Positions 1,367 through 7,415 of a stretch of 34,691 bases of DNA are shown in pieces. The stretch is from Gemmatimonadota bacterium (lineage in GTDB: Bacteria > JBHIER01 > G020348925): NCBI GenBank assembly GCA_020348925.1, contig CP070758.1, positions 1,515,318-1,550,008 of the forward strand. Direction: 5' to 3'. Both the position numbers and the translations under genes were made by a program. Below the pieces are notes generated by a model that saw only the letters and a program-made list of their open reading frames with translations, did not search any database and was not told the origin of the DNA. Numbering within the stretch: the first letter of the stretch is position 1; every line of letters begins with the position of its first letter.

Positions 1367-3877
1367 TTATTTCATGATGAGACATTTTCTTGTTTGAGAA
1401 CAATCGCTCGTTTTCAATTTGTAGAAATAAATTCCTGAGGCGAGTGAGTTGCCGGCATTATCCAATGCGTCCCAAGTGACCCTGTAATGTCCTGCTGCGT
1501 TGGTATCATTCACTAATGTTGCCACTTCTCGCCCCAGGATATTGAATACACAGAGTTTCACCACACTCTCATGAGGCAGAGCGTACTCGATAATTGTCCG
1601 AGCGTTAAAAGGATTGGGATAATTCTGAGTCAGGATGAACTCTTTGGGAATATATATTTCTTTGACAAGAGTCATCAGCATTTTAAAATCTTCTTTTGAA
1701 AAATGGGATTCCAGAGATTGGAAATATTTGAAGACTTTGGACGAGATTTTAACTGTTTCAGCCGATGTACATGAACCAATCCCGAGAACGACGTTCACAA
1801 TACCTATTGCATCGATAATATCTACGGCTCCGTCCCCGGTGCAGTCGGCCGCCCATTCTTGAGATTCCGTTGGCTCTGTGGACCCCAGTATGATGTTTAC
1901 AACAGCAAGCACATCCAGAATGTCTAAACTCCCATCCTGATTCACATCTCCCTTGAAGGGGACGTAGTTGAACCATTGTACAATGTTGTTTAATAGCGCT
2001 CCACGGATTTCATCATCGTCTCCAGTTGTAGCCCGAATGCCTTCGAGTCCGAGGGCGAAATAGACCAGTTTGTAATCACCATCGTATTTGATGGCTGCAA
2101 CTTCTTGAGAAGAGTAATAATGAAGGATGGAGCTTGCCCCTTCACGAGGAGTGATAACACTTGGAGAAGTTTGATTCACATCTATTGTGAACAAGTTGAA
2201 ATCGCCGGTGATGGGATCCCCATCCACCGCGGTTAGGAATGTCTCCTCTATTGTATCATTTACGTAATCAGCGTGAAGATAATTTGCATAAAAGAGTGCA
2301 TCATCCAGCGAGCCATTTTCCACTAAATCATAACCTATGTTTTGGCCAAAGAGGATAAGACAACCCCCTCTCTCAAGATAGCTGGCAATGAGTGTTTGTT
2401 CATTCGGAGTAAGAGTGCTGTCCCGGTCATCACCTGTAGACCAGATCATTGTTTCATACCCCGACACGTCAAAGCAGAAACAGTCTTTGGACTGCGTATC
2501 CACATAACGGTACACGTTTCCTCCGGCATACAAACACGCATCGTAATATTCTTCTGAAGAGGAGCCGCCATCGTCGTCGACTAACAGAAGAAATGGATGT
2601 CCTGTCTGAAAATTGAATGTTAACGTGTCCGCATAATCACTTTCTTCCGATACGTAGACATAGGCCGTCGCCCAATGAGACAAGAAGTCTGGATAGGCAA
2701 TCAGGCGAAAGGGCGTGTTTGTGTTTCCGGTTGGGTGAAAAGGTTCAATTTCTTCATATACAGAATGTCCGTCTTGCACAATAATATGTTCATCCTCAAC
2801 GTACAATTCTGCTCTGATGTCGGTCGCGGCATACCCGATATTTTCGAGAAGCACGATGAGATTTGCGGATTCACCAGGAGTGAGAACCCCGTCCTTATTT
2901 CCCTCGCTGTCGTCAATAGTATATCCTGAGGTGTGGAGCAGTGGTCTTAAAAAATCGCTGACTTCTTCGTTTGCAGTCAAATACGGCAGCCCCCCTTCCG
3001 CCAACGGTACGGACCCTGTTATGGCGTATAACTTATCTTCCACTACTTCAGCTGTTAATCCTTCACGACGTGTCGGCATGGGTGCCCAGTGTGTCCATCG
3101 ATCATGCACCGGATCATACGATTCGAATTCGTTCGAATTTCCACCACGTCCTCCAACCACGTAAATTCTGCCGTGGACGACTCCGATTCCGCTTCCTCCT
3201 CTCGGTGTTGGCATAGGGCTTTTTGCAGTCCATGTTTTGGAAAAGCTATCATACTCCTGGACTAGGTTAGAACTCCATCCTCCAATCAAATACACTTTGC
3301 CGTTAGCGTGAGCAGTCATAAACGTAGATCGTGCTTGAGGCATAGTCACGTCTGCTTTCCAAGAATCGCCAGCGGGATAATATTTTTCCACAACATTTTC
3401 TTCCGCTTGAACTCCCAGTCCACCAAATACGAAAATAGTATCGTTGATGGCTACTCCTCCTGCCCAACCTCGAGGTGTCGGCATTGAAGTTTTTGACGTC
3501 CAACGATCGCTCTGGGGATCGTATTCCTCCACGTCGTCCAGGGCATAGTGGCCACCGGCAAAGGAACCACCACGTCCACCGATGGCATAGATTTTATCGT
3601 TCACGACTTCTGTTACCAAGCCCCACCGTGGCGTCAACATAGGAGCCTTCATTTCCCACGTGTCAGTTTCAGGATCGTACATTTCAACCGTGGGTAGAGC
3701 TCCATATGGATTAATACCCCTCTGACCACCTATGACGTATATCTTTCCGTTCAAGACGACGGAGGCTGGATTCCAACGCTCTGTGAGTATTGGCGCTCTC
3801 GGTGTCCACGTTTGAGATAAACCAACGGTATAAAAACTCACGAATATGAGAGTTATCATGAGACTCTCCTTTTTCAT
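1367..3877 (-). CDS. Secreted kelch-repeat protein with dockerin domain and type IX secretion sorting tail
   Basis: 836 residues. Residues 1-21 are a signal peptide; a GAGGAG site lies eight bases before the ATG. Residues about 30-305 contain six kelch repeats (each with a YxIGG-like strand, then a Y/DP..D.W pattern), which should close a six-bladed propeller. A CARDB-like beta domain follows, then a module beginning LLLVDDDGG that resembles a GATase-like fold, then a dockerin type I domain at about 640-705 (KGDVNQDGSLDILD, then DCTGDGAVDIIDA). After a linker come NYPNPFN near 750 and ASGIYFYKL near the end, the hallmark of a T9SS C-terminal sorting domain. It is thus predicted to be exported by Sec, moved through the outer membrane by type IX secretion and anchored or released at the cell surface. 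Its middle and dockerin parts are paralogous to the neighbouring selenoprotein. Ligand unknown. Confidence 0.9.
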   Translation of the reverse strand: MKKESLMITLIFVSFYTVGLSQTWTPRAPILTERWNPASVVLNGKIYVIGGQRGINPYGALPTVEMYDPETDTWEMKAPMLTPRWGLVTEVVNDKIYAIGGRGGSFAGGHYALDDVEEYDPQSDRWTSKTSMPTPRGWAGGVAINDTIFVFGGLGVQAEENVVEKYYPAGDSWKADVTMPQARSTFMTAHANGKVYLIGGWSSNLVQEYDSFSKTWTAKSPMPTPRGGSGIGVVHGRIYVVGGRGGNSNEFESYDPVHDRWTHWAPMPTRREGLTAEVVEDKLYAITGSVPLAEGGLPYLTANEEVSDFLRPLLHTSGYTIDDSEGNKDGVLTPGESANLIVLLENIGYAATDIRAELYVEDEHIIVQDGHSVYEEIEPFHPTGNTNTPFRLIAYPDFLSHWATAYVYVSEESDYADTLTFNFQTGHPFLLLVDDDGGSSSEEYYDACLYAGGNVYRYVDTQSKDCFCFDVSGYETMIWSTGDDRDSTLTPNEQTLIASYLERGGCLILFGQNIGYDLVENGSLDDALFYANYLHADYVNDTIEETFLTAVDGDPITGDFNLFTIDVNQTSPSVITPREGASSILHYYSSQEVAAIKYDGDYKLVYFALGLEGIRATTGDDDEIRGALLNNIVQWFNYVPFKGDVNQDGSLDILDVLAVVNIILGSTEPTESQEWAADCTGDGAVDIIDAIGIVNVVLGIGSCTSAETVKISSKVFKYFQSLESHFSKEDFKMLMTLVKEIYIPKEFILTQNYPNPFNARTIIEYALPHESVVKLCVFNILGREVATLVNDTNAAGHYRVTWDALDNAGNSLASGIYFYKLKTSDCSQTRKCLIMK

Positions 3878-4149: not shown

Positions 4150-5871
4150 TCAGGGAAGACATGTTCCAATTCCCAAGATCACGTTGACAATTCCAAGTGC
4201 GTCGAAAACATTCACCATTCCATCGTCGTTGCAATCGGCGGTCCAGGATTCCGTATCCGTCGGATCACTAATTCCTAAAATGATGTTTACTGTTTGGATC
4301 ACGTCCAGTATATTGATTGCGTCATCACCGTTAACATCTCCCTTGGTCGGAACATACCGCAGCCACTGGATGATCTTGTTCATAAAAATTCCTCGGAACT
4401 CATCATCATCCCCACTCATCGTCCGGATCCCTTCAAAGCCGAGAGCAAGATAGACGACCTTATGGTTTCCTTCATATTTGATAGCGGCAGTCTCGCGGCA
4501 CATGTGATAGACAAGTATTGGACTTGCTCCCTCCCGCGGAGTTATAACGCTGAGGGAGGATTGGTTTTCGTCGATTGGGAGAAAAGGGAAGTCAGCGGTG
4601 ATGGGATCGCCCTGGATTCCACACAGAAATGATTCCTCAATCGAATCACTGACATAGTCAGCATGGAGATAGTTGACGTGGAAGAGTGAATCATCCATTG
4701 AGCCATGTGTCACCAAATCAAAGCCTATGTTCTGGCCAGAAATGATGAGATGACCTCCTCCGTCAAGGTATTCAGTCAAAAGATCTTGCTCCTTTGCAGT
4801 GAGGGTGCTGTCCTGTTCATCACCCGTAAACCAAATTAGGATTTCATATTCTGAAAGATCTAATGATTGAATATCTTGGGATCTCATGTCCCATTCGTGG
4901 TGCACTTTGTCTGCGTGGAACAAACATCTCTCGTAATATTGCTCGTAAGACATTCCACCATTATCATCAATCAAGAGTATGTCCGGATTCCCCACAGGCA
5001 AGCGAAAAGTAAAAGTATCTTTATGACTTGGCTCTGTGTCAATCACGAGTTCGAGTGAAGCATAATGAGGCCCGGAAGCAAGATCCAAACCGATGATGAA
5101 GGGATCATGAGAATTGTTGCCGCTTCCGTGACCGGGGATCGTATTAAAAAGAGTTTCATCTTTTTCTAAGATGATATGTGTGTCTTCACTCTCCAAGCTT
5201 CCTCGCAGATTACTCAAAGAGGGCTCGATGCAGGCGTTCTCTAATTCAACAAACAGATGTGCTGTTTCGCCACAGTTGAGTATAGCATCACTATTGCCTT
5301 GTGAGTCGTCGAGCATCACCTGGATCATTCGTATTTTTTTTGCCAAATACCTATCGATTTGACTTCGCATGTAGGATTCGTCGAATTGATCGGGGTAGAA
5401 AAACTTGAAATCCTGAAATTGCATAAAGCGATCAACAATAATAAAGACAGGCCATCCACCCCCAAACCGTTCACAGACGTGGCCGGTTGAGTCGTACACC
5501 ACAGTATACGTAACGCCATGTCTGTTTACCCAATTCTGTACTGTTGACAATTTTGCAGTCATGCCGATAGAGATGATTTGAAAATCCTGGTCTTTTAATT
5601 CTTGCCAGAGATTATTTTCGAGATGCGGAGCCTCCGCATTGCAGGTCGGTCACCCTGAATGCCAAATATGGAGCAGGATAACATCGCCTGTGTAATCGTA
5701 CAGAGAGATGCTATCACCGACTGCTGATGGCAGGGTAAAATTATCCACAACATCTCCAATTTCATAATCCTGCGCTGAAGATGATGAATGGTGTGTATCT
5801 GAAAAACTGACTCCGTAATAAAGGAGAAAGAGACTAACCAGGAATTTTGGAAGATGAGGATTTGTTATCAT
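4150..5871 (-). CDS. Exported thioredoxin-like (TlpA-type) selenoprotein fused to a dockerin-bearing tail
   Basis: A 573-residue reading frame if the in-frame TGA at 5650-5652 is decoded as selenocysteine (residue 74); an ordinary gene caller splits it in two. The start at 5871 has GGAG seven bases upstream and a signal peptide (residues 1-24). Residues 36-175 are a TlpA/AhpC-type thioredoxin fold. The sequence around the TGA reads IWHSG-U-PTCNAEAPHLE, where TlpA proteins have W-C-x-x-C-x-AE-x-PHLE, so U74 falls exactly on the first redox cysteine and C77 on the second. Frame and homology continue without a break on both sides, and a hairpin suited to be a SECIS lies just downstream. After residue 190 come a CARDB-like domain, the LLIDDNGG module (about 295-505) and a dockerin (about 508-572), paralogous to the kelch protein but without its T9SS tail. 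Predicted role: an extracytoplasmic thiol/disulfide or peroxide-handling protein. It follows the TPR gene by 39 bases. Confidence 0.84.
5623..5652 (-). promoter_or_regulatory. Bacterial SECIS candidate of the thioredoxin-like selenoprotein
   Basis: Reading the minus strand, the UGA codon (5652-5650) is followed after ten bases by ATGCGG-AGGCT-CCGCAT (5639-5623), a perfect six-pair stem with a five-base loop; two more loop bases can pair. The loop starts 16 bases after the UGA and has G as its second base. Both agree with what is known of bacterial SECIS elements, which sit inside the coding region immediately 3' of UGA and present a G in the apical loop. The loop is close to the AGGUCU loop that I recall for E. 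coli fdhF. Confidence 0.75.
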
Positions 5872-5910
5872 GTTTTGTCTCCGTTTTATTTTATCAAAGA
5901 ATTGAAGCAT

Positions 5911-7380
5911 TCATGAGGTCCCTTTGATTTCAGAGAATCTTTGTTTCGTTTCCTCAACTTGTGGAATCCCTTCATCACAACCGTCCATAATCAGCAAGAA
6001 TTTCTCCATTTCTGAAACGGCTTTTTGAATATGACCGAGTTCATCATAGATGCGACCCAACAGATATCGGGAGTGCGAATAGTTGGGATTAATCGCTACG
6101 ACCTTTTCCAATTCGGCGATCGCCTTATCCGTGTCGCGGCTTTTGAAAAGAGCTTCGGCGAAAGCAGTTCGAAAAAAGACCTCCTCTCGCGGCCAGAGCG
6201 GTTGAGCGAGAATATTTTGAAAGTGCTCAATCGCTTTGTCATGAGTCCCGTTCGCTGACGCGATCTTCGCGGACAAATGACCGACATACATCTTCATCCT
6301 CAGAGTATAGAGTTCCCCGTACCTCTCGTGAACATCTCGTTGTTCTTCCTGGAGTATGAGATGCTCCAACTGTTCCCTTTGTTCGACGGCTTTATGGACC
6401 ACTCCCAATTCAGTGTAATTCAAACCCATGAGCCATTTCAGAATGTAGAGCTGGGGACCATCGGCCGGAATCTTTTCCAGGAGAGATAACGATTGCTCGT
6501 AGTCACCCCTTTCGTAATGGGTTCGTGCTATCTGTATCTGACTGCTGTTTCGAATCCATTGGTTTGTACTTGTCGCAGCTCCTTTCTCAAAGTAGCTGAT
6601 GGCTTTTCTATACATACCTTTATATTGATACGCTCTCCCCAAGTGATCGATGGCAAAGGCAAAGTCGGGCTTGAGGACCCGTGCTTTGTTAAATTCCGTG
6701 ATCGCTTCATCATATCTTCCCATGATGAGATATATTTCTCCTAAACTATCATGAGGATTGGGTTGATCGGGAGACAGAAAAACATACTTTTTCATATTGG
6801 CTATTGCCTTATCGTAATGACTAAGGTAGGCATATGCGTATCCGAGCTGGTTGTAGGCCGGAGCATAGTTGGGATCTATCTTAAGAATACGTTCGAATTC
6901 TATTATTCCTTTTTCATATTGTCTGAGTCTGAGATATTCGTTGCCTCGATACTCATAGGGTTCTATGGCCTTCGAATAACGTTGGGCCAGTTTTTCGATC
7001 ATCTCCCGAGCTGTCGTGTAATCGCGGTTTGTATGGGCATTGTGAAAGGAGATGATGAGCTGCTCTTTTTCCGTAGTATTCGGAGCAAGTTCGACCGCCT
7101 TTGCGAGAGCCTCTCTTGCCTCTTCGATTCGACCGTAGTTACGGCAACTCACGCCTAACCTGCAAAAGGCCATAGCAAACCCGGTATCCAGTTGTGTCGC
7201 CCGTTCAAAACAGGCGAGCGCCTCTTCAAAATAAAATTTGTTCGCCAGTTCTATCCCTTTCCGATACTTCATATATGCTTCTGCAGAATTGGTGGTGACT
7301 TCCCTCTTGTCTCGGAGACCGTAGGCCAGGGCAACAATGAGTGCTACAACACATGCGACAATTGCTCCTTTCTTCATCAT
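5911..7380 (-). CDS. Membrane-anchored tetratricopeptide-repeat (TPR) protein
   Basis: 489 residues from the ATG at 7380, chosen over the longer frame from 7407 because AAAGGAGG (7389-7396) lies eight bases before it. Residues about 4-20 form a single hydrophobic anchor, after which the protein is almost wholly helical TPR units of about 34 residues (for example FYFEEALACFERATQLDTGFAMAFCRLG and YDKAIANMKKYVFLSPDQPNPHDSLG style repeats), roughly ten copies. TPR arrays bind protein partners, so this is best read as a periplasm-facing scaffold or assembly factor. It is the first gene downstream of the sigma-54 promoter at 7416-7431 and is followed closely by the thioredoxin-like selenoprotein, so the two are probably made together. 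No enzymatic motif is seen. Partner unknown. Confidence 0.85.
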   Translation of the reverse strand: MMKKGAIVACVVALIVALAYGLRDKREVTTNSAEAYMKYRKGIELANKFYFEEALACFERATQLDTGFAMAFCRLGVSCRNYGRIEEAREALAKAVELAPNTTEKEQLIISFHNAHTNRDYTTAREMIEKLAQRYSKAIEPYEYRGNEYLRLRQYEKGIIEFERILKIDPNYAPAYNQLGYAYAYLSHYDKAIANMKKYVFLSPDQPNPHDSLGEIYLIMGRYDEAITEFNKARVLKPDFAFAIDHLGRAYQYKGMYRKAISYFEKGAATSTNQWIRNSSQIQIARTHYERGDYEQSLSLLEKIPADGPQLYILKWLMGLNYTELGVVHKAVEQREQLEHLILQEEQRDVHERYGELYTLRMKMYVGHLSAKIASANGTHDKAIEHFQNILAQPLWPREEVFFRTAFAEALFKSRDTDKAIAELEKVVAINPNYSHSRYLLGRIYDELGHIQKAVSEMEKFLLIMDGCDEGIPQVEETKQRFSEIKGTS

Positions 7381-7415
7381 GACGACAACCTCCTTTCTCT
7401 TATGCAAAGAGTACT

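Follow-up and report, generated by a model that had tools for sequence, protein, structure and literature searches.

The DNA analyzed here, a 34,691-nucleotide stretch of a Gemmatimonadota genome (the window), includes two minus-strand ORFs of 86 aa (5650–5910) and 470 aa (4150–5562) in its ORF listing. These ORFs raise the question of whether the TGA triplet at 5652–5650 ends a small gene or is read as an amino acid within a larger one and, in the latter case, what kind of protein is made.

A single gene with one internal UGA codon

When TGA is taken as a residue the two ORFs fuse in one frame from 5910 to 4150 on the minus strand, with the triplet at 5652–5650 as the sole internal stop. This single joined frame bears out the proposal of an earlier reading, made from the sequence alone, that the ORFs represent one gene split by an in-frame UGA. 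Translation probably starts at the ATG at 5871, with a Shine-Dalgarno-like GGAG (5879–5882, minus strand) read from the sequence 7 nt upstream; an alternative ATG is situated at 5910. The UGA is residue 74 counting from the former start and residue 87 counting from the latter. From 5871 the gene (4150–5871, minus strand) has 573 codons, one of which is the internal UGA, and is terminated by TGA at 4152–4150. Its translation begins with a hydrophobic leader, a probable signal peptide region that we identified by eye (5779–5871, minus strand; the end is approximate). Under standard annotation the gene is divided between a tiny protein and a dockerin protein that lacks its head, and as a consequence the family is easily missed.

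The UGA lies within a TlpA/ResA-type thioredoxin-fold domain (AhpC-TSA/Redoxin; 5431–5760, minus strand), which was delimited by a profile match and by alignment to solved structures. In a profile search with the joined protein, the match to AhpC-TSA (PF00578) extended across the UGA (2e-17, 63.6 bits, versus a curated cut-off of 26), consistent with the earlier claim of homology on either side of the codon. Solved ResA/TlpA proteins align through the UGA and place it on the first Cys of the CxxC motif (WHSG-U-PTC), exactly where it had been assigned before. Based on the joined frame and the homolog alignments, the UGA (5650–5652, minus strand), read as selenocysteine (Sec), opens a UxxC motif, U-P-T-C; with this motif and a profile score over the cut-off we assign the region as a TlpA/ResA-type oxidoreductase domain. 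The conserved Pro of GGGWP occupies the cis-Pro position of such domains.

The ResA/TlpA/DsbE thiol-disulfide oxidoreductases have their fold, the position of the CxxC motif and sequence similarity in common with the Sec-TlpA domain, but have Cys where this gene has Sec. Most of these enzymes are single-domain proteins that are periplasmic or membrane-anchored. A ResA-like family with Sec, NF041054 (ResA-like WAxxUGC motif-containing protein), has weak similarity across the domain, but differs in length and motif spacing, and the score of our protein (22.9 bits) is far under the cut-off of 300 for that family. Nine AhpC-TSA matches were detected in the genome, two of which have a UGA.

Conservation of the UGA codon

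A UGA at the identical codon was found in TlpA domains from genomes related to the source genome at no level below the domain Bacteria. Named carriers include one bacterium each from candidate division KSB1 (L089), Krumholzibacteriia (L090) and candidate division CSSED10-310 (L092), together with an uncultured bacterium (L091). Homologs of the TlpA domain have Cys, as the sequence-only reading had anticipated, or Sec at the residue corresponding to 74, and Trp and Gly are absent from this position.

The UGA is kept in all ten full-length relatives, that is, proteins having the TlpA domain together with the same middle region, from seven genomes and three phylum-level groups. These ten are the window gene, one gene from the KSB1 record (G001), two each from G051, G098, and G100 (one of the G100 pair corresponds to L091) and one each from G099 and G101. 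No Cys form was seen among them, which suggests that Sec is not an optional feature of the full-length family but a requirement. Decay after the UGA codon, which had been named as the sign of a pseudogene, was seen in none of the homologs examined. Several relatives from other lineages carry a T9SS-type sorting tail in the place of the dockerin, so the front part is conserved while the delivery tail changes.

One of the full-length copies in G098 (L138, G098:C95) reads UPPWC, with the second Cys displaced by one residue and the Sec codon retained. The KSB1 genome also encodes a protein (L086 1726–3747, minus strand; G001:C85) that has another thioredoxin-like front with a UVYC motif, followed by the middle region of the full-length relatives and then a sorting-type tail.

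A covarying hairpin downstream of the UGA

Downstream of the UGA is a bSECIS hairpin (5623–5639, minus strand) with a 7-bp stem, AUGCGGA/UCCGCAU, and a GGC loop that begins 17 nt after the codon. The tight hairpin noted earlier is indeed at the right distance, as it falls within all of the published bSECIS limits: a loop of 3–9 nt, a stem of 4–16 bp, a G in the first two loop positions, a spacing of 16–37 nt and an MFE of ≤ −7.5 (PMC13188914). Of the TGA triplets in the window, 2.2% satisfy these limits, and the folding energy of the hairpin was not unusual relative to shuffles (z −0.05 to −1.55). The weight we give to this hairpin is based on the conservation of its register and its covariation across species, not on energy alone. 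For 14 Sec sequences, standard pairs in the common helix register amounted to 74.5%, versus 54.7 ± 3.4 after column shuffling and no more than 49 in slid registers; the register itself came from the sequence of the window, and the slide control is somewhat biased in its favor. The covariation score of the helix in the same 14 sequences was 0.452, versus 0.161 ± 0.043 in column shuffles, with double changes in six of the seven pairs. Paired stem positions numbered 5.4 of 7 in 13 Sec homologs and 2.6 of 7 in 13 Cys homologs (p = 0.0015, with relatedness ignored). A search of the genome with a covariance model of the helix returned two clear places, both of them training sequences, with nothing else near them.

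Selenocysteine machinery in the genome

Sec insertion at the UGA depends on selA, selB, selC, and selD, and all four are present in the genome (5.04 Mb, one contig). We identified a tRNA-Sec with the anticodon UCA, selB (396 bits in a profile search), a SelA frame directly before selB that was recognized by eye from its translation, and selD (372 bits), whose own frame is interrupted by a UGA in the motif CAGUASK. In the panel, selB scored over the cut-off in all eight other genomes that have TGA-containing TlpA-type matches (for six of them the precise place of the TGA was verified), but also in 15 of 19 comparison genomes without such matches. Its presence fails to discriminate between genomes with and without the UGA and is a matter of consistency, not proof. 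The tRNA-Sec gene (L001 1501–1599) comes immediately downstream of a TlpA-domain gene of the Cys type (L001 392–1438), at ~404,270–405,470 of the genome.

The middle region and the dockerin

Between the Sec-TlpA domain and the C-terminus is a middle region of ~320 residues to which no CARDB or other Pfam/NCBIfam model matched, and for which no sequence match was found in the PDB. Based on paralogs and a low-confidence model, we divide it into an unannotated beta-sandwich (Ig/CARDB-like) region (4996–5313, minus strand) and an unannotated alpha/beta region that begins at LLIDDNGG (4366–4995, minus strand). An AlphaFold2 model from a four-row alignment had a mean pLDDT of 51, and Foldseek searches with this model gave weak matches to mixed folds (TM about 0.1–0.2 on the query). 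The earlier description of this region as CARDB-like is thus an approximation: a beta-sandwich is visible in the low-confidence fold, but there is no CARDB profile match. As a module, the region may serve in binding or have a structural role. A module of this type (~320 aa, Ig-like plus alpha/beta with LLIDDNGG) recurs ~40 times in the genome, usually just before a dockerin; copies in the window are at 4366–5313 and 1766–2956, with about 40 further places elsewhere in the genome.

The protein ends, as had been claimed, in a type I dockerin (4183–4344, minus strand), which matched Dockerin_1 in the profile search of the joined protein (1.6e-7, 31.8 bits, versus a cut-off of 22.9) and whose two calcium-loop repeats (DVNGDDAINILD and DCNDDGMVNVFD) are intact by eye. 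Cohesins are present in the same genome, in keeping with a cohesin-dockerin system. There are 81 cohesin matches, with several in some proteins, and more than 100 dockerin matches on very different proteins, which for one bacterium, with no close relatives among the genomes compared, is, judged from these profile matches, a very large cohesin-dockerin network. Non-cellulosomal cohesin-dockerin systems such as those of ANME archaea likewise have many dockerins on non-cellulolytic proteins along with multi-cohesin proteins (PMC9012536). In the portion of that paper considered here no selenoprotein cargo is described, and "selenocysteine" appears only in relation to FdhA.

A second Sec-TlpA-dockerin gene is located at ~2,673,000 of the genome (L079, 3923–4630). 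Its product is 236 aa in length, with a UGFC motif and its own dockerin, and a Cys TlpA gene adjoins it. In the window, a TPR-repeat gene (5911–7407, minus strand) precedes the Sec-TlpA-dockerin gene on the same strand with a gap of 39 nt, and the two are possibly co-transcribed. Downstream (1367–3877, minus strand) is a paralog, identified by sequence comparison, in which a Kelch propeller is followed by a middle region 50% identical to that of the Sec-TlpA gene, then by a dockerin and finally by a T9SS-type sorting tail. Near the window (L125 1895–7447; genome about 1,509,800–1,515,350) is a gene for an 1850-aa cysteine-rich, exported-type protein with cohesin and dockerin matches and a T9SS-like C-terminal tail; this protein is a possible substrate or scaffold partner.

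Relation to known selenoproteins

UxxC selenoproteins of the TlpA/Prx-like type are already established as a class, as the sequence-only reading had recognized: a 2026 review lists PF00578 UxxC, cd02966 UxxC, and Redoxin PF08534 UxxC in its table (PMC13188914). The window gene resembles these in its domain family, in having Sec for the first Cys of CxxC and in its downstream bSECIS. It differs in that its Sec domain fronts an exported-type multidomain protein, whereas the review table has no fusion to a dockerin, a T9SS tail or an Ig/alpha-beta region. In the open-access literature searched we found no selenoprotein with a dockerin or T9SS tail and none within cohesin-dockerin assemblies at the cell surface. 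The Sec-bearing TlpA domain is therefore known, and what appears to be new is the predicted architecture of leader, Sec-TlpA domain, Ig-like/alpha-beta region and dockerin. The earlier reading knew of no such architecture; this held for the dockerin in that literature, but needs to be qualified, since lineages elsewhere do have relatives, several of them bearing T9SS-type tails where this gene has a dockerin.

Proposed function and alternatives

Considering the proposed mechanism as a whole, we think it reasonably probable that the gene encodes an exported selenothiol-disulfide oxidoreductase whose Sec-TlpA domain is tethered at the surface by cohesin-dockerin pairing. SelB and the Sec-tRNA(UCA) would decode the UGA, with the hairpin immediately after it as the guide, and the product would then be exported. 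By analogy with the TlpA/ResA family, the Sec of UxxC would attack a disulfide, to be resolved by the Cys three positions on, and the C-terminal dockerin would anchor the redox domain to surface proteins of its own cell that bear cohesins. The export, the redox direction, the substrate and the pairing of this particular dockerin with a cohesin are the steps that we infer.

Somewhat unlikely, in our estimation, is that the selenoprotein is a soluble periplasmic or released oxidoreductase whose dockerin is no cohesin tether and only stabilizes the protein or binds calcium. Dockerins occur on a wide variety of proteins in this genome, and the relatives have other tails, so docking would be dispensable for the core function; however, the many cohesin matches, the seemingly intact calcium loops and the dockerins on two separate Sec-TlpA proteins argue for a tether. 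A peroxiredoxin-like peroxidase in place of a disulfide oxidoreductase is improbable. The best Pfam match is to the AhpC-TSA family and Sec is common in peroxidases, but the UxxC sits at the CxxC position of ResA/TlpA, and the best matches among solved structures and in NCBIfam are of the ResA/TlpA/DsbE types.

That the gene encodes a genuine selenoprotein is, on the sequence evidence, almost certain. A pseudogene, a sequencing error or two separate genes with the UGA as a real stop would accord with the normal use of this stop elsewhere in the genome, but is extremely improbable given the same codon in independent genomes, the covarying hairpin, the full Sec machinery and an intact frame beyond the UGA that is 50% identical to a paralog. 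An altered code in which UGA is Trp or Gly genome-wide would equally leave the frame open, but is scarcely credible, as TGA terminates 8 of the window's 16 other main genes and is internal in none, and homologs carry Cys at the UGA position, where neither Trp nor Gly was seen. Pseudogene, sequencing error and altered code are thus practically excluded by the conserved UGA, the covarying hairpin, the intact downstream frame and the normal TGA stops.

Returning to the tethered oxidoreductase, a broader proposal that we advance tentatively, as possible rather than probable, is of a surface-displayed, always-Sec family in which Sec-TlpA and the Ig-like/alpha-beta module are combined with interchangeable tails (dockerin or T9SS) for delivery out of the cell, with selenium chemistry inside an extracellular cohesin-dockerin complex. 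If true, selenocysteine would be located beyond the cytoplasm, at the cell surface in little-known bacterial lineages and as a part of cohesin-dockerin assemblies. The genome encodes two DsbD/CcdA-type membrane proteins, which could be the electron source for the periplasm. A CcdA-type membrane gene is situated beside a Cys TlpA gene and a DUF1573-like gene (L126 1262–2543; genome about 3,581,260–3,582,540) and is a candidate for electron supply.
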